DNA from: Deltaproteobacteria bacterium
Lineage (GTDB): Bacteria > Desulfobacterota > Binatia > HRBIN30 > JACQVA1
Length of the DNA stretch: 64,000 nucleotides
Direction: 5' to 3'
NCBI GenBank assembly: GCA_016178705.1
Contig: JACOST010000028.1
Span: forward strand, 642,951-706,950
Below are positions 25,218 through 60,502 of the stretch, in pieces. Made by a program: the position numbers and the translations under genes. Below the pieces are notes generated by a model, which had not been told where the DNA came from, ran no database searches, and saw nothing but the letters and a program-made list of their open reading frames with translations. Within the stretch, counting starts at the first letter, position 1, and every line of letters begins with the position of its first letter.

Positions 25218-28200
25218 ATGTCTATCAGCATGGCGAATGGCGGAATTCCGGATTTCGTAGAGCTCGATCGTACGTTCCGGCCTCTACATCCTGCAACCAA
25301 TCCGGAAGAGGCCGCTGCGTCAAGCTACACCCGCACTCTGCCTGGGCTCCAGCCCGCAATCGGCTGGGCTGACCTTCTGAAGAGGCGACTCGTCGTAGTC
25401 CTGGGGGAACCCGGCAGTGGCAAGAGTTGGGAGTTTAAGCATCGCGCCACTCTCGAGGGGCAGCGCGCGTTTTATGTCCGACTCGACGCCCTGACCAATG
25501 AATGCCTGGAGCCAGTTTTGGGTTTCTCAGAATACGGACGGTTCCGCGACTGGCTCGGTAGTCGGTACGAAGCGATGTTCTTCCTGGACTCAGTGGATGA
25601 GGCGAAGCTGCGAAGCTCTGCGGACTTCTACCGCGCTCTCGACAGGTTTCGGCATGAAATTGGCACGGCCAACTTGACGCGCGCGAAAATCTTCATCAGC
25701 TCTCGCATAAGTCAGTGGGAACCTGAGAGCGACGCCCATGAGGTGCTGATTCAATTTGGGCAGCGACAGCGCTCGAAGGACATTGGATCAGGACAGATCG
25801 CCGGCGGCGGGACGGATGCGGAACCCATCTATGTCGTTCACCTTCAACCGCTCGATCAACGGCAGGTCGAGGTTTTCGCCACCGCGCGTGAGGTGGCCGA
25901 TGTGGCTGCATTCATAGCCGCGCTCAACACCGCGCACGCCTGGGAATTCGCACGAAGGCCAATCGATGTAATGGATCTCGTCCGGTTCTGGCTTGAGCGC
26001 GGTCGGCTGGGCTCGCTGACCGAACTCATCGAATCCGGTGCCGAGCGAAGTCTTCGCGAGACGCGAAGAGGCGATCCCCTCTCGCCCAAGAAGGCGCGCG
26101 AAGGGGCACAGGCGCTCGCCGCTGCAACGATACTGTGCCAGCAGTTGGATTTCAGAGTGCCCGATGATGCGTTTATTGGATCACCAGCATTGGACGCGCT
26201 CTCGTGTTTGCCCGACGAATGGCGACCGGAGGAAGTTCGTGCGCTGCTCGAGCGGGCGATATTCGATGGCGCCAGCTACGGCCGCATTCGGTTCCACCAC
26301 CGTCGCGTGGGCGAGTACCTTGCTGCCAAATGGCTAGAAGCGCGCATTCGAGATGGTTGCCCGATCAGCACACTCGAAGCGCTGATTTTCGATCGACGTA
26401 ACCGGAGACGAGTGCTGCGCCCGACCCTGGCACCAGTCGCAGCGTGGTTGTGTTGCGGCAACGAGCGATGGAACGCAGATCTCCGGGGATGGATGCTCGA
26501 AGCGGCACCGGAGATCCATCTGCAATACGGCGATCCGAGCTGTCTGCCTCTGGAATACAAACGGAGCCTGATCCACAGACTGGTGAGTAACTTCGCGGGC
26601 CGAAACCGCGTGTGGGTCCATTCAGATCCGGAGTGCCTTAGTCGCTTGGCGGATCCCGGCCTTGCACCAGATGTCTCGGCGATCATCGCAGACCGTGCCG
26701 CTCCGATCGACATCCGGTCCCGGATGCTGCAGCTTGCCCGGCATGGACGGCTCCGTGACTGCTTGAGTACCGCGCTCGACATAGTCGCTTCTAGCGAAGA
26801 GCCGGGTGAACTCAAGTCGTATGCGGCGGCTGCAATCCGCGACATCGGCGACCTTGCTACCCACGAGCGCCTTGCGAACATCGCCGCCGGTCTCACGCAG
26901 ATTTCGAATTCTCTGTGCGGGACAATTTGCGAAGCTCTGTACCCCTCCACTATCAATGCTCGGGAGCTTGTCGCGCTCCTTCGCAAGACAAGTCCCGTCC
27001 CACAGCTCAGCGTCGACCTGCCCTACTTCCTAGGCGCGCAGCTCAAATCGGAGTTGAGGCCGGAACACGGCGGCGCGTTACTTGCCGAGTTGGTCGAGCT
27101 TGTGCGGACGCCTCCGCATTTGTCGCTTCACCGGAGGAGTGCGCGTGTGTCACAACAGTTCTCCTGGGTAGTGCAGATGCTGCCCACTGTGCTCACGGTT
27201 CTCCTGACCAAGGCCTCCCTGACGCAGCAGGAAGCCGAAGCCGCCGCGGCGTCGATCCAGCTCCTCGGTACTCTCCGTCATCATCACGAAGCCGTTGGCT
27301 ATGAGAAGCTTCCAGACCTCAACGCTTTTACGAGGCGGCATCCGTTAGTCAGGAGGCTCTACTTTTGGTTTGAGGTCGAAAGCTGGCGAGAGGAGAACGA
27401 GGGCGAGCCATTCTACCTCCTCCAGGTGTTTGGCCATGGAGAGATTGTGCAACCCTGCATCGAAGATCTTGATTGGCTTTTGATCGACATCAACCAGCGC
27501 CCAACGGCGCGCGACCGTGGATTGGCACTCCGCCTGGCGACAGACCTATGGAACAACTCTGGTCGGCGCTGGAGAGAGCGCCGCCACATCGTCGACGCGG
27601 TCAGGAACACACCTCCTCTGTTGGCGATTTTCCGGCAGCTCGCAGCACGCGAGCGTTGGCCGCACTTCAAACGGATCTGGTACCAGTACGTTACTGTCAA
27701 GCTTGCGAGCAAATGGTGGTGGGAGCGGCGCCTGTACGAGATGAAACGTCGCTGGCGAGAAATCCGAGCACAATGCAATCTACTGCTTCACATCAGAGCC
27801 CTCCGCTCTGGCGTGGAGACCGGGTGGCTCGCCCAATTGGTGTTCGAAGCACCCGAACGGGGCGGCGAGAACCACCTTACGCCGAAATCCCGGAACCGAA
27901 TGCGCCAGAAGCGCCGGCGATTGATTACATGGGCAACAAGAGAGGGGTGCAAACGTGTGTGGCGCCGGTTCGTGCCGCCGTTGCCTCACGAGAAGCAAAA
28001 CCCGGGAGCGATCGACAACCGACTCATAGCCGGCTTGGCCGGTCTGCAAGCCTCATTGGCCGACGGCCAGCTTGACTTCTCAAACCTGCCGGGACAGGAG
28101 GCGGAGCTGGCTGTCCGCTACGCCGTCAACGAAATCAACGGCTTTCCTCCGTGGTTCGGCGATCTCGTCGCACGCCGCCCCGATGCAGTCCACCGCGTCC

Positions 28201-29534
28201 TGTCCCAATGTATCCAGGGCGAATGGCAGTTTGCTGCGGACCGAGAACATGTGCATGAGGTTATGGCCGACCTTGCTTGGCGGGGCGACGCCCTTGTCCC
28301 GCTCGTACGCGATACCTTGATTGATCTGCTCCGCGCTAGCGACCCGCCGAATCGCTGGATACTTCAGTTCGCGCTGACGATCTTGCTCCGTGGAGCTCAG
28401 CCCATGTGTTCAGAGTTGACGACCATCGCTCGCGAGAGGGCACAGCAAGCCATGCCCGGTGGCCCATCGCTCGTGATGTGGCTTGCCGTCTTGCTTCAGC
28501 TAGATGCTCCAAGCGCGCTGGATCTCATCGAACAAGGCACTGATGGAAGCTGGCCTGACCCCGATCAGACGATGACGCGCCTGTGCGCGGCGCTGAACGG
28601 GTCCCTCGGAGGCTTCGAAGCAGTGCCGGCAATTTCAAAGCCAGATTACGCCATGCCTATCCATCTCCGCCGATTCATTCCTCTCGTTTTCCGGCACATC
28701 AGGCCGCGTGACGATATCGAGCGCGCGGGCAGTGGCGTGTACTCGCCCGGCGAACGAGACTGGGCCCAAGATTTCCGAAACGGGTTACTCATCAGGCTGT
28801 CCGCACTTCATTCCGAAGAGGCGAGACGAGTCCTCAGCGAACTGATCGGTGACCCGGCGCTGTCAAACACGCGCGACTGGGCGGCGCACCTACTCGATGA
28901 TCTAACGCAAAAGCTGGCCGACTCGCCGCCGTGGACTGCCAACGATGTGAGGTGCTTCTCCGCCGAGTACGAGAGGGATGCCAAGACGGATGGCGACTTG
29001 TTCAAGATCGCCTGCGACCGGTTCGGAGACATCAAGCGCGACGTGGAAGAGTCCGACAACAGCCTGCGCGAGGAACTGCGTGCGGATGATGACGAACTTG
29101 TGTTCAGACGGTGGCTAGCTCGCAAGCTAAACGAGCGCTCGCGCCAGCGCTACACGGTTCCGCAGGAGGAGGAAATCGATCTGCGGCAGAGACCCGACCT
29201 GCGGATAGAGAATCCGAGGACTGCCCCGGTATCCATTGAAGTCAAGTGGGCCGACAAGTTGGCGCTAGCCGAGTTGCTGGAGCGTCTTGAGAATCAGCTG
29301 GTAGGGCAGTATCTGCGGGCAAATAACTCACGCTACGGCATCTACATCCTCGGCACGTTTGGCCGCAAAGGATACTGGGAAGAATCCGCCAGCGGCCGAC
29401 GACTCGCCTTCGAGGAAGTCGTCGATGTCATCCGGCGCCGGGCCAGCGAACTAGAAGGCGCCCGCTCCGATGTCAGCGGTATTGACGTCGTATCAGTTGA
29501 CTTCCGTAATCCTCGGGTGAGGTCATCAAGCTGA
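25218..29534 (+). CDS. NACHT/STAND-type NTPase with HEAT-like middle and C-terminal PD-(D/E)xK nuclease; candidate antiviral protein
   Basis: A 1,438-residue protein. The NTPase core lies at the very N-terminus: Walker A GEPGSGKS (residues 63-70), Walker B MFFLDSVDEAK (about 120-130) and the ISSRIS segment (160-165) that matches the NACHT sensor Arg. A long helical region follows; around residues 500-640 it reads as HEAT-like pairs. The last 115 residues look like a restriction-type PD-(D/E)xK nuclease: Asp1327 in RPDLRIEN, Glu1341-x-Lys1343 in VSIEVKWADK, then a helix with a Gln (LENQLVGQYL). Known Avs/STAND defence proteins usually carry the nuclease at the N-terminus. Codon use looks less GC-biased than in neighbouring genes. 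Function is inferred. Confidence 0.8.
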   Translation: MSISMANGGIPDFVELDRTFRPLHPATNPEEAAASSYTRTLPGLQPAIGWADLLKRRLVVVLGEPGSGKSWEFKHRATLEGQRAFYVRLDALTNECLEPVLGFSEYGRFRDWLGSRYEAMFFLDSVDEAKLRSSADFYRALDRFRHEIGTANLTRAKIFISSRISQWEPESDAHEVLIQFGQRQRSKDIGSGQIAGGGTDAEPIYVVHLQPLDQRQVEVFATAREVADVAAFIAALNTAHAWEFARRPIDVMDLVRFWLERGRLGSLTELIESGAERSLRETRRGDPLSPKKAREGAQALAAATILCQQLDFRVPDDAFIGSPALDALSCLPDEWRPEEVRALLERAIFDGASYGRIRFHHRRVGEYLAAKWLEARIRDGCPISTLEALIFDRRNRRRVLRPTLAPVAAWLCCGNERWNADLRGWMLEAAPEIHLQYGDPSCLPLEYKRSLIHRLVSNFAGRNRVWVHSDPECLSRLADPGLAPDVSAIIADRAAPIDIRSRMLQLARHGRLRDCLSTALDIVASSEEPGELKSYAAAAIRDIGDLATHERLANIAAGLTQISNSLCGTICEALYPSTINARELVALLRKTSPVPQLSVDLPYFLGAQLKSELRPEHGGALLAELVELVRTPPHLSLHRRSARVSQQFSWVVQMLPTVLTVLLTKASLTQQEAEAAAASIQLLGTLRHHHEAVGYEKLPDLNAFTRRHPLVRRLYFWFEVESWREENEGEPFYLLQVFGHGEIVQPCIEDLDWLLIDINQRPTARDRGLALRLATDLWNNSGRRWRERRHIVDAVRNTPPLLAIFRQLAARERWPHFKRIWYQYVTVKLASKWWWERRLYEMKRRWREIRAQCNLLLHIRALRSGVETGWLAQLVFEAPERGGENHLTPKSRNRMRQKRRRLITWATREGCKRVWRRFVPPLPHEKQNPGAIDNRLIAGLAGLQASLADGQLDFSNLPGQEAELAVRYAVNEINGFPPWFGDLVARRPDAVHRVLSQCIQGEWQFAADREHVHEVMADLAWRGDALVPLVRDTLIDLLRASDPPNRWILQFALTILLRGAQPMCSELTTIARERAQQAMPGGPSLVMWLAVLLQLDAPSALDLIEQGTDGSWPDPDQTMTRLCAALNGSLGGFEAVPAISKPDYAMPIHLRRFIPLVFRHIRPRDDIERAGSGVYSPGERDWAQDFRNGLLIRLSALHSEEARRVLSELIGDPALSNTRDWAAHLLDDLTQKLADSPPWTANDVRCFSAEYERDAKTDGDLFKIACDRFGDIKRDVEESDNSLREELRADDDELVFRRWLARKLNERSRQRYTVPQEEEIDLRQRPDLRIENPRTAPVSIEVKWADKLALAELLERLENQLVGQYLRANNSRYGIYILGTFGRKGYWEESASGRRLAFEEVVDVIRRRASELEGARSDVSGIDVVSVDFRNPRVRSSS

Positions 29535-30056
29535 TCCTCCCTCCAAGTCTCCCCTCGGAAGTCGGCCTCGGCCGGGGCGATTGACTATACCGACGGAGAG
29601 AGTTTTCTGCGCCGCCTGGTGTTTATCACGCATGAAGAAGAGCTTGGCGGCTCCTCTTTCAACCGAAGAAGCTCCGATGCGCGGAGACAGATCTGGCAAC
29701 GTCTGAAGATCTCCAGCGAGACAGAACCGGATCGCTTCGATACACCGCTCTTCCCTCCAACGGCTATCCGCCGACGCCCCTCCCGCTCAAACGCTTCTCC
29801 AGTGGTGACTTCGTGCTGTCCCGGGTGCGGATCGAGACTCGGCGAGGTTCGAGGCGGCCTCGTTTAAGCACGTGGCACAGAAGGCCGCGGTGTCGAGGAT
29901 CGTGCCGCCCAATCAGGCGACCACGCGAAACGCGATGCGGGTGCCGCGATCACAGTCACAAAGTTTGGGCTGCATCGCTCGATCCTCCTCTGGCAACCGA
30001 CCAAACGCAGGCCCTCCATCCGCGCTGGATTCTCTGATTGTCCCGTGTTGCGAGCA
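29535..30056. other. 520-base gene-poor gap after the NACHT-nuclease gene
   Basis: I see no credible gene here. Short open frames exist (for example 29619-29867 on plus and 29864-30097 on minus), but neither shows a ribosome site, a recognisable motif or gene-like composition. The stretch may be eroded coding DNA. It separates the large accessory gene from the Gfo/Idh/MocA gene whose stop codon is at 30057. Confidence 0.4.
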
Positions 30057-56123: not shown

Positions 56124-59100
56124 TCACATTCCGGCGGACGGCGGCATGTGCGTCACGCAAATCTGGACACTGTCCACTCGAGCGGTCCGGCTGCTGATCC
56201 CGCCAATTTGCTGAGCCGAAAGCGCGGCACCAAAGGTGGCGGCGTTGACATTGACGTCGGTCCAGACCAGCCCCCATAGGTCCGTGGCCGTTCCGTAGGT
56301 CTTTGATGTATCGGTCGTTGGCCAAACGGTGGCATCCGCATTGTTATTGCCTTGGACCGTCCCTCCCTTCACGAGGCGCACCGACTCGTCAAAGACGCGG
56401 AGACGGCGGAGCGTAATCTCGTTCACGATCCACGTGACCTGGATACCTAAGATCACATCTCCGCTCGGGATGCTGAAGCCGAAATTGGTGCACTTGAGGT
56501 ATTGCGTGTTTTGCGAAGCGCTGAGCGCCGATGTCCCATAGACGGCGTTCGTGGTCGCGGCGTTGCCAGGATTCGCCCACGCGATGTTGCCCACACCGCC
56601 GGGGACCGAGTTGTCATTGACACAGTTCGCAGCGACCGGCGTTCTGCAATCCGCAACCGGGAGCGGGGTGCTCGTCGGCGTCGGTGTCCGCGTCGGGGTG
56701 CCCGTCGGCGTCGGCGTGCTGGTCGGCGTCGCCGTCGGGGTATTCGTTGGGGTCCGCGTCGGGGTGTTCGTCGGCGTCCGCGTGGGCGTGCTGGTCGGTG
56801 TTGCCGTCGGCGTGTTCGTGTTCGTCGGCGTGCTGGTTGGTGTCGCAGTCGCGGTCCGCGTCGGCGTCGCCGTCGGCGTACTCGTCGGGGTGGCCGTTGG
56901 CGTAGCAGTCGGCGTGGCTGTCGCAGTCTGAGTGGGCGTCGCGGTTGCGGTGCTCGTCGGCGTGCTGGTCGGTGTTGCCGTTGGCGTAGCGGTCGGGGTC
57001 GCCGTTGGTGTTGCTGTCGGGGTGTGAGTCGGCGTGTGAGTGGGCGTCGCCGTCGGGGTGGCCGTCGGCGTCTGCGTCGCGGTGTTGGTCGGAGTCGATG
57101 TTGGTGTGGCCGTTGGGGTCAGCGTCGGCGTGCGAGTTGGAGTCGACGTTGGCGTCAGTGTCGGGGTGTGAGTGGGCGTCGTGGTTGGCGTATCGGTCGG
57201 GGTCGCCGTTGGTGTTGCTGTCGGCGTGTGAGTCGGCGTGGCGGTGGGCGTATCCGTTGGCGTGGCGGTCGGCGTCAGCGTCGGCGTGTGAGTTGGTGTG
57301 CTCGTCGGGGTCGCCGTCGGTGTGTCAGTGGGCGTCGTTGTTGGCGTATCGGTCGGGGTCGCCGTTGGTGTTGCTGTCGGCGTGTGAGTCGGCGTGGCGG
57401 TGGGCGTATCCGTTGGCGTGGCGGTCGGCGTCAGCGTCGGCGTGTGAGTCGGTGTGCTCGTTGGAGTCGCCGTGGGTGTGTCGGTGGGCGTCGCGGTTGG
57501 CGTATCGGTCGGGGTCGCTGTTGGTGTTGACGTCGGGGTCAACGTCGGGGTGTGAGTTGGTGTGCTCGTTGGGGTCGCCGTCGGTGTGTCAGTGGGCGTC
57601 GCGGTTGGCGTATCGGTCGGGGTCGCCGTTGGTGTTGCTGTCGGCGTGTGAGTCGGCGTTGCGGTGGGTGTATCCGTTGGCGTTGCACTTGGGGTGTCGG
57701 TCGGCGTTGAAGTCGGGGTGGCCGTCGGCGTCTGCGTCGCGGTGTTGGTCGGAGTCGATGTTGGTGTGGTCGTTGGGGTCGACGTCGGCGTGCGAGTTGG
57801 TGTCGCCGTCGGCGTGTGAGTGGGCGTCGCCGTCGGGGTGTGAGTGGGCGTCGCCGTCGGGGTGGCCGTCGGCGTCAGCGTCGCGGTGTTGGTCGGAGTC
57901 GATGTTGGTGTGGCCGTTGGGGTCAGCGTCGGCGTGCGAGTTGGTGTCGCCGTCGGCGTCAGTGTCGGGGTGTGAGTGGCCGTCGATGTTGGTGTGGCCG
58001 TTGGGGTCGACGTCGGGGTGCGAGTTGGAGTCGACGTCGGGGTGGCCGTCGGGGTCAGCGTCGGCGTGTGAGTCGGCGTCGACGTCGGTGTGACCGTCGG
58101 GGTCAATGTCGGGGTACGAGTCGGCGTCGACGTTGGCGTGGCCGTCAGCGTCAACGTCGGGGTGTTGGTCGGAGTCGAAGTGGGCGTAGCCGTCGGGGTC
58201 AATGTCGGAGTGCGAGTCGACGTCGAGGTTGGCGTGGCCGTTGGCGTCAGCGTCGCGGTGTGAGTGGGCGTCGATGTTGGTGTGGCCGTTGGGGTCGCCG
58301 TCTGGGTGCGAGTTGGAGTCAACGTTGGTGTGGCCGTCGGCGTCTGCGTCGGGGTGTGAGTGGGGGTCGAGGTTGGCGTGGCGGTCGGGGTCAGTGTCGG
58401 CGTGTGAGTTGGGGTCGACGTTGGCGTGTGAGTCGGCGTCGCGGTTGCGGTGGCGGTCGGGGTCAGCGTTGGCGTCGAGGTTGGCGTGGCGGTCGGGGTC
58501 AGTGTCGGCGTGTGAGTTGGGGTCGACGTTGGCGTGGTCGTCGGCGTCTGCGTCGGCGTGTGAGTCGGCGTCGCGGTTGCGGTGGCGGTCGGGGTCAGCG
58601 TTGGCGTCGAGGTTGGCGTGGCCGTCGGGGTCAGCGTCGCGGTGCGAGTTGGCGTCGAGGTTGGCGTGGCGGTCGGGGTTAGTGTCGGCGTGTGAGTTGG
58701 GGTCGACGTTGGCGTCGCCGTTGGCGTCAGCGTCGGCGTGTGAGTCGGCGTCGCGGTTGGTGTGGCTGTCGGGGTCAGCGTCGGGGTGTGAGTTGACGTC
58801 GCGGTTGGTGTGGCCGTCGGGGTCAGCGTGGGCGTCTGAGTCGGGGTCGACGTTGGCGTGGCCGTCGGCGTCAGCGTCGGCGTATGAGTTGGCGTCAGTG
58901 TCGGCGTGTGAGTCGGCGTCGCGGTTGGCGTCGAGGTGGACGTTGCCGTGTCCGTTGGCGTTAGCGTCGGTGTGTGAGTTGGCGTGGCCGTTGGCGTCGA
59001 CGTCGGGGTCAGCGTCGCGGTGTGAGTCGGAGTCGAGGTTGGCGTGGCCGTTTGGGTTAGCGTCGCGGTGTGAGTCGGCGTCGACGTTGGCGTATCGGTG

Positions 59101-60128
59101 GGAGTCGAGCTGGGCACGCCGGCCAGGACGTTGAACGTGTACGTGAGATCGGAGCTCCGAGGTGGAGTGGTCAGGGCTTGTGCCTGAATGTAAGGTTGCG
59201 CAGCACCGACGGCGAGATCCAGGGGCGACGCGGTTGCGTGAAATCCCTTCACTTGAAGTGCAGCGCCCGGACTGCAGGGTGTCGAGGTTGAATCGTCGCA
59301 TGCGGTCAGATTGAGGGATACTGGCAAACCGTCGGGTAGCCCGGCTTGGGTGACGTCCAGCCGGATCGAACTGGGATCGATTTCATCCACCGCGTCGACC
59401 ACGGTGAAGCTCAACGGCGCGGGATTGGGAATCGATTGATTGGGGGCCGGGCTCAGATTCAAGAAGAACGGGAAAGCGAGTATGTGAACGTCATCACCGC
59501 TGGCACCCCCACCCGGTAGAATGGTGACTGCGGTGGCGGCGCTCAGATAAGCCGGAGGCAAGATCGCCGAGGGGCTACAGGGTTCGGCAATGCCCGCTGG
59601 TGTCGTCGAACACTGCTCGGTGATCCCGGGCACGGTGGTGGCGTCGGCGGTTGAGAAGCCAGCGATCGTGAGACTTGCCGGGCCCAGAGTGAGATTGGTC
59701 AACACGATTTGCTCCCCAGACGGTATACGCGCCAGATTGATGGCGACGCAGCACTTCGGTCCGGCCGCGGATTCAAACGCGATCCGGATGGTCTGTACGG
59801 CGGCAGGGATGTCGGGCAGGAGCGCGCCGCCGGGTTGCTCCCAGAGAGCCTGCAGGCCGCTGCCACTTCCTGGTGTGCTTTCAATCGGTGTGGGCGTGGC
59901 GCTAGTGGGGGTGGCGCCTTGCGGAGACAAGGTCGCCGTTGGTGGCGGGGACTGCGGGGCTGGCGTCGCGGCGGGGGTAAGTTGCGCGCCATCCGAGCTC
60001 CCTCCACTACCACGGCATCCTTCGCTGCAACCTTGAAGAACGAGACTGAACATCGCCGCCATCACCGCCAGCCATTGCAGGATTTGACGGGTGCGATTCC
60101 CAGAATAGATTGTTCGTTGCTGATCCAC
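56124..60128 (-). CDS. Giant Thr-Pro-repeat lipoprotein with C-terminal globular domain
   Basis: About 1,334 residues from a GTG at 60128. The start is a lipoprotein leader ([22 protein letters not shown]) with the Cys in LVLQGC, followed by a Pro/Thr-rich linker. A beta-rich domain of about 250 residues comes next (from about [21 protein letters not shown]). Then come about 800 residues of TPTx repeats, and a 180-residue C-terminal domain ([53 protein letters not shown]). The C-domain matches a beta-sandwich type found at the ends of other bacterial surface proteins. Likely anchored by lipid and extended outward. The start is uncertain: the frame is open to 60311. Confidence 0.8.
56664..59112. 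repeat. 12-bp-unit tandem repeat coding for (TPTx)n
   Basis: About 2.4 kb of degenerate 12-base units (TPTx, with x = A, S, H, D, L, N, Q or R). Long near-identical blocks show recent duplication: 57185 matches 57341 over more than 100 bases (offset 156), and 58369, 58477 and 58609 start matching blocks (offsets 108 and 132). All offsets are multiples of 12. A point mutation-rich but frame-preserved array like this is prone to slippage and length change. Confidence 0.9.
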
Positions 60129-60502
60129 TTGGGCCGTCGGGCGACCTTCGGGAGTCTCGAACCCACTCCGCGACGGCTTCCCGCCGACGAAGCAGTTCGT
60201 GATCACGCCCAGTCGTGATCTATCGGGTATTCTGACGCGGCGCGCAAGGCAAACAGCAACTAAGGTGCCACGCACTGCCGCACTTTTTGTCACGTGGTGT
60301 GACGCCTGCACGGATCATTCGCTGCCCAGAAATTGCGCGGTGCAAGGAAAGTGGGCAAAGTGGCGGTCCACTATCCTTTGCGAGTACTGCTGAGTTGTGT
60401 GCGTCCAGTTCAGCAAAAGCGATGATGGCCGTCCGGTCGTCTTATGGTGCGCCCTCGGTCTGAGTGAGCAACTCCGTTCGGGGGGGCTGCCACTACTACG
60501 GA
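60129..60502. other. 374-base gap between the stalk lipoprotein and DUF1028 genes
   Basis: I find no credible gene, repeat or hairpin here apart from the possible extension of the lipoprotein frame up to 60311. The region should contain the promoter of the minus-strand lipoprotein-barrel-FecR set. No clear -35/-10 pair is visible. Confidence 0.4.

Follow-up and report, generated by a model that had tools for sequence, protein, structure and literature searches.

Avs-type STAND defence proteins carry their effector nuclease at the N-terminus. In bNACHT25, nuclease activity is required for defence (PMC12169576). The NCBIfam collection already contains a family of single-gene antiphage NACHT proteins, HyoA (NF058534.1, named "NACHT domain-containing antiphage protein HyoA"; curated cut-off 1200 bits), with EruA (NF058535.1; curated cut-off 1000 bits) as a distant sister. 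A literature search found no paper on HyoA or EruA antiphage proteins, and the antiphage label is taken from NCBIfam.

Here we describe a gene in a 64-kb stretch of DNA from a genome of the class Binatia, in the poorly studied phylum Binatota. (We refer to the whole stretch that was analysed as the window.) The reading frame stays open for 1438 codons from an ATG and is a genuine ORF. The features of this gene, with positions in the window, are:

25218..29534, + strand: hyoA-like gene, NACHT NTPase with a C-terminal nuclease (ORF; NCBIfam NF058534.1)
25365..26417, + strand: NTPase core plus helical or winged-helix-like part, about residues 50-400, an approximate boundary (AlphaFold, Foldseek)
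25404..25427, + strand: Walker A (P-loop) GEPGSGKS, residues 63-70 (G68 in 94/94, K69 in 93/94)
25578..25604, + strand: Walker B of the NACHT type (D-x-x-D-E), FFLDSVDEA, residues 121-129 (invariant in 94 sequences, in part by construction; see below)
25695..25706, + strand: sensor-1-like ISSR, residues 160-163 (R163 invariant in 94)
26418..28937, + strand: long helical HEAT-like superhelix, about residues 401-1240, presumed sensor (AlphaFold, Foldseek, profile)
28965..29531, + strand: PD-(D/E)xK-type nuclease, about residues 1250-1438, probable exchangeable effector slot (AlphaFold; exchange in relatives)
29094..29096, + strand: E1293, in the first core helix (E in 91/94)
29196..29246, + strand: D1327 ... 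E1341-x-K1343, predicted metal-binding or catalytic residues (88/94)
29295..29297, + strand: Q1360, in the helix after the ExK strand (Q in 88/94)

When we searched NCBIfam release 20, the window protein matched antiphage_HyoA with E = 0 and 1137.5 bits. The match is collinear and full-length (residues 16-1430 on positions 1-1428 of the 1430-position profile). This score is about 60 bits under the HyoA cut-off, so the formal threshold for membership is narrowly missed; EruA gave 210.5 bits, which is below its own cut-off of 1000. The nearest kin of the window protein have HyoA scores of 1110 bits (L047, from Nitrospira), 1144 bits (L048, from a member of the Planctomycetaceae), and 1212.8 bits (L049, from a member of the Syntrophaceae). 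Because L049, a sister sharing about 48% identity, scores above the cut-off, we read the window protein as a divergent HyoA and as a putative antiphage protein, a label that it acquires by homology. The window gene is a deep-branching addition to the family.

A first-pass annotation of this DNA had proposed an undescribed defence system, which does not hold, as the family was already curated as antiphage; what is new is the exchange of the C-terminus among relatives. Searches with the whole window protein found no match in Pfam or in PADLOC-DB 2023. The PADLOC search had been proposed along with the annotation, but PADLOC 2023 does not include HyoA, so a search of this type would miss it. A phmmer search against the PDB gave one match, to eIF3J, which we judged to be meaningless. 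We also note an EruA-like protein from a different Binatia genome (L009:1444-5526, - strand; 930 bits, with a cut-off of 1000), which has the same C-terminal D-ExK residues.

Conservation and predicted structure

We aligned 94 sequences, in which the identity of the relatives is mostly about 20-52%. All 94 have G68, D124, D127, E128, and R163, and 93 have K69, with the caveat that most of these sequences were gathered with a Walker-B pattern, so that the Walker-B column (but not the others) is conserved partly by construction. One protein alone, from Verrucomicrobia (L053:9968-14302), lacks the Walker A lysine and has an arginine there. In a set of 16 full-length proteins, made up of the window protein and relatives that are 21-28% identical to it, all 16 keep G68, K69, D124, D127, E128, R163, E1293, E1317, D1327, E1341, K1343, and Q1360. 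The Walker, sensor, and D-ExK-Q residues are conserved down to about 20% identity.

The AlphaFold model of residues 1-1190 is a confident one, with a mean pLDDT of 86.2. Its best Foldseek matches in the PDB are Avs4 with a phage portal (8dgf, E = 3e-7) and human NAIP from NAIP/NLRC4 (E = 2.5e-6), followed by HEAT solenoids; sequence-profile matches to alpha-Rep HEAT proteins cover residues 521-598. These results bear out the first-pass description of the front of the protein as a NACHT-like NTPase, with Walker A, Walker B, and ISSR motifs that proved to be conserved in relatives, and of the middle as long, helical, and partly HEAT-like. We presume that the superhelix is the sensor.

The same annotation described the end of the protein (D1327, E1341-x-K1343, and a following Gln helix) as a restriction-type nuclease, and our data agree. 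Of the 94 sequences, 88 have D1327, E1341, K1343, and Q1360. The six exceptions lack the PD-(D/E)xK domain: L108 and L109 are truncated where their contigs end, and L046, L052, L107, and L128 have a C-terminus of another kind. A separate structure prediction for the C-terminus, which had been suggested as a check, was made for residues 1176-1438 from 44 sequences and was likewise confident (mean pLDDT 90.8). The order of its elements is a helix (with E1293), strands, the ExK strand, a helix (with Q1360), and strand-helix-strand, which is the PD-(D/E)xK order. D1327 opens one strand, E1341 and K1343 are in the next, and Q1360 is in the helix that follows. The top Foldseek matches of this model include McrC, EcoT38I, and Hjc from the PDB and, from a viral library, Mrr, VRR-NUC, and PD-(D/E)xK proteins; none has E < 0.001, so we consider the nuclease matches suggestive and base the predicted fold on topology and residues. 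Neither Pfam, searched with the nuclease domain alone, nor the PDB, searched with a sequence profile of this domain, gave a match.

Exchange of the C-terminus in relatives

In some relatives, the C-terminal domain differs beyond a single boundary, at positions 1245-1252 of the HyoA profile. The variants are:

L052:9926-14416, Gemmataceae: a PNP_UDP_1 phosphorylase domain (Pfam, E = 3.9e-16) replaces the nuclease; HyoA match up to profile position 1246
L128:7989-11915, phage contig: a hydrophobic, membrane-like tail after profile position 1247
L107:7128-11045: HyoA match up to profile position 1252, then no known domain
L046:6700-11585 and L150:3712-8615, near-identical, on Rhizobium plasmids: HyoA match up to about profile position 1245

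The phosphorylase variant (L052) is 40% identical to the window protein over the body, and its position in the tree adjoins the branch of the window protein (support 89). In the two Rhizobium plasmids, the gene is preceded by a Fic gene that overlaps it by 4 bases and has an intact HPFLDGNGR motif. We looked for a remnant of the nuclease nearby and found none in L107, L150, L128, or L052; in L046, there were two weak, short matches that look like noise. A shorter protein from S. fredii (L151, 1167 aa) was left out of the list of variants, as it may be a broken copy.

The four exchanges share one boundary and lie on separate branches of the tree, which is best explained if the C-terminus is an effector module, and so this part of the protein probably serves as a slot for interchangeable effectors. 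In other bacterial conflict systems, nucleoside phosphorylases and restriction-type nucleases are known to alternate at effector positions (PMC8195603). With moderate confidence, we suggest that HyoA is an inverted NLR-like platform, in which a common sensor body has been joined, always at one boundary, to a nuclease, to a nucleoside-phosphorylase domain, or to a membrane-anchored tail, or has been paired with a separate Fic enzyme. If so, effector exchange in bacterial NACHT immunity would occur at the C-terminus as well. This makes two questions testable: whether a killing domain can be driven from either end of a NACHT/STAND sensor, and whether the sensor and the effector are recombinable, independent modules. 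The pattern of exchange among relatives is more useful than one more family member, and it deserves follow-up.

Genomic setting and spread

The first-pass annotation placed the gene between a nitroreductase and a gene-free gap, and this was correct. The upstream neighbour is a divergently oriented nitroreductase (identified with Pfam), and downstream there is a gap of 522 bp without a convincing gene and then a GFO/IDH/MocA oxidoreductase. Within this gap (29535-30056), the stretch DYTDGESFLRRLVFITHEEELGG may be the remnant of a decayed gene. The annotation also held that the composition of the gene is unlike that of its neighbours, which is true only to a mild degree: its GC content is 60.3%, compared to 63.7% (s.d. 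2.0) in windows of the same size (10th lowest of 120), but other parts of the 64-kb window have lower GC than the gene does. The gene is surrounded by ordinary metabolic genes, and no defence genes were recognised beside it within the window. Scans for flanking repeats and for promoters and terminators at this gene gave only chance-level matches. A comparison to empty sites was uninformative because the genes that surround the nitroreductase and the oxidoreductase are arranged differently across the order. Elsewhere in the window, a frame of 1395 codons (56127-60311, - strand) has a lipoprotein-like start region (VLQGCSEGC) and about 800 residues of Thr-Pro repeats, which accounts for the strong strand skew at 57-59 kb.

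A scan of genome contigs that was based on the alignment and used the Walker-B pattern found at least 306 stretches that encode relatives, in many phyla; a scan of genome contigs with a single protein found none. There are 64 plasmid records with relatives, and 33 of these plasmids are predicted to be conjugative. Relatives were present in none of the 14 other genomes of the source order and in 7 of 395 genomes of the phylum, counting the source genome (E < 1e-30). In a tree of 83 rows (FastTree), the window protein groups with proteins from Nitrospirota, Thermodesulfobacteriota, and Planctomycetota (support 98). The two further proteins from Binatota are placed elsewhere. The gene tree is out of step with the host phyla, and HyoA relatives have spread horizontally.

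On plasmids, the annotated neighbours of relatives include SIR2/ATP-binding pairs, type III restriction, TIR, HEPN, CHAT, and DUF262 genes. At E < 1e-8, 143 neighbour proteins matched 331 PADLOC models and 126 control proteins matched 37, where the controls were taken from fixed places in five Binatia genomes (so from other taxa than the neighbours) and one protein can match several models, so that only the direction of the difference is safe. The models matched by neighbours include Gabija GajA, AbiLi, and AriA. The HyoA-like gene L128:7989-11915 is part of a phage genome that also carries contractile-tail genes, and it lies between the genes for endolysin and portal, which is a typical cargo site. 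We rejected matches labelled 'Acinetobacter phage' as evidence for carriage by phage, as the neighbouring genes are chromosomal (emrB, baeSR, acrB); one such record, L034 (CAKLQF020000015.1, labelled 'Acinetobacter phage MD-2021a'), is probably a bacterial contig. The first-pass annotation expected a defence gene to have homologues scattered near other defence genes, and we do find relatives on plasmids, in a prophage, and beside such genes. Purely vertical inheritance, which it named as the contrary outcome, does not fit a tree that ignores host phylum or the carriage by plasmids and phage.

Proposed mechanism and comparison with known systems

It is very probable, in our view, that the window protein is a divergent HyoA that would detect a cue with its superhelix, oligomerise through its NACHT module, and cut DNA with its C-terminal nucleases, so that phage growth stops or the cell dies. 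The superhelix (about residues 401-1240) would sense a cue of infection, which is probably a phage protein. The NACHT module, with NTP bound, would then oligomerise and draw the C-terminal PD-(D/E)xK domains (residues 1250-1438) together, which would turn on the cleavage of DNA. This cleavage would stop the growth of the phage or kill the infected cell. We infer the cue, the oligomerisation, DNA as the target, and cell death by analogy to Avs4 and bNACHT25, and the defence role of the window gene is predicted from its homology.

There is a modest chance that the window protein instead represents a separate family, sister to HyoA, that has a cue and an outcome of its own. This would fit a score of 1137.5 bits, below the cut-off, and the supported branch that the window protein forms with L047, L048, and L049, but L049 is on that same branch and passes the cut-off. 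Also, the match to HyoA is full-length and collinear, while the next family, EruA, scores just 210 bits. It is very improbable that the gene encodes a housekeeping STAND regulator that is inherited vertically and has no part in defence. Its metabolic neighbours in the window are what one would expect of such a regulator, but its absence from the other 14 genomes of the order, its rarity in the phylum (7/395), the separation of the three Binatota copies in the tree, and the carriage of relatives by plasmids and phage all argue against it.

Alternatively, the NACHT protein could be a defence sensor whose PD-(D/E)xK domain is an RNase or a non-catalytic reader of nucleic acids, rather than a killing DNase. 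Some enzymes with the PD-(D/E)xK fold do act on other substrates, and there is no significant structural match here from which the substrate could be fixed. However, every sequence that has the domain keeps D, E, K, and Q (88/94), which implies that catalysis is under selection, and relatives have swapped the domain for other predicted effector enzymes, not for binding domains, so we consider this alternative unlikely.

We return to the divergent HyoA and its closest counterparts. The window protein shares the domain order and the length of HyoA (NF058534.1; 1438 amino acids for a profile of 1430) and matches it collinearly from end to end, but it lies in a divergent branch together with proteins from Nitrospirota, Syntrophaceae, and Planctomycetota. 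EruA (NF058535.1) also has NACHT at the front and a D-ExK domain at the end, but it reaches only 210 bits and is about 20% identical to the window protein. Avs4 (AVAST type 4) combines a STAND NTPase with a long helical sensor and a nuclease effector, and it is the best structural match of residues 1-1190 (8dgf), but there is no match at the level of sequence families. As the first-pass annotation noticed, the order of domains is reversed relative to Avs: the NTPase comes first, starting near residue 50, and the nuclease comes last, at 1250-1438, so the window protein does not have the N-terminal effector of Avs proteins. Similarly, bNACHT25 and bNACHT32 (clade 6) join NACHT to a PD-(D/E)xK DNase effector, and bNACHT defence needs the nuclease (PMC12169576), but their effector is N-terminal and they have an NCH1 C-terminal sensor domain. 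The window protein would work like Avs and the clade-6 bNACHT proteins with the effector at the opposite end, and it is a member of neither group.
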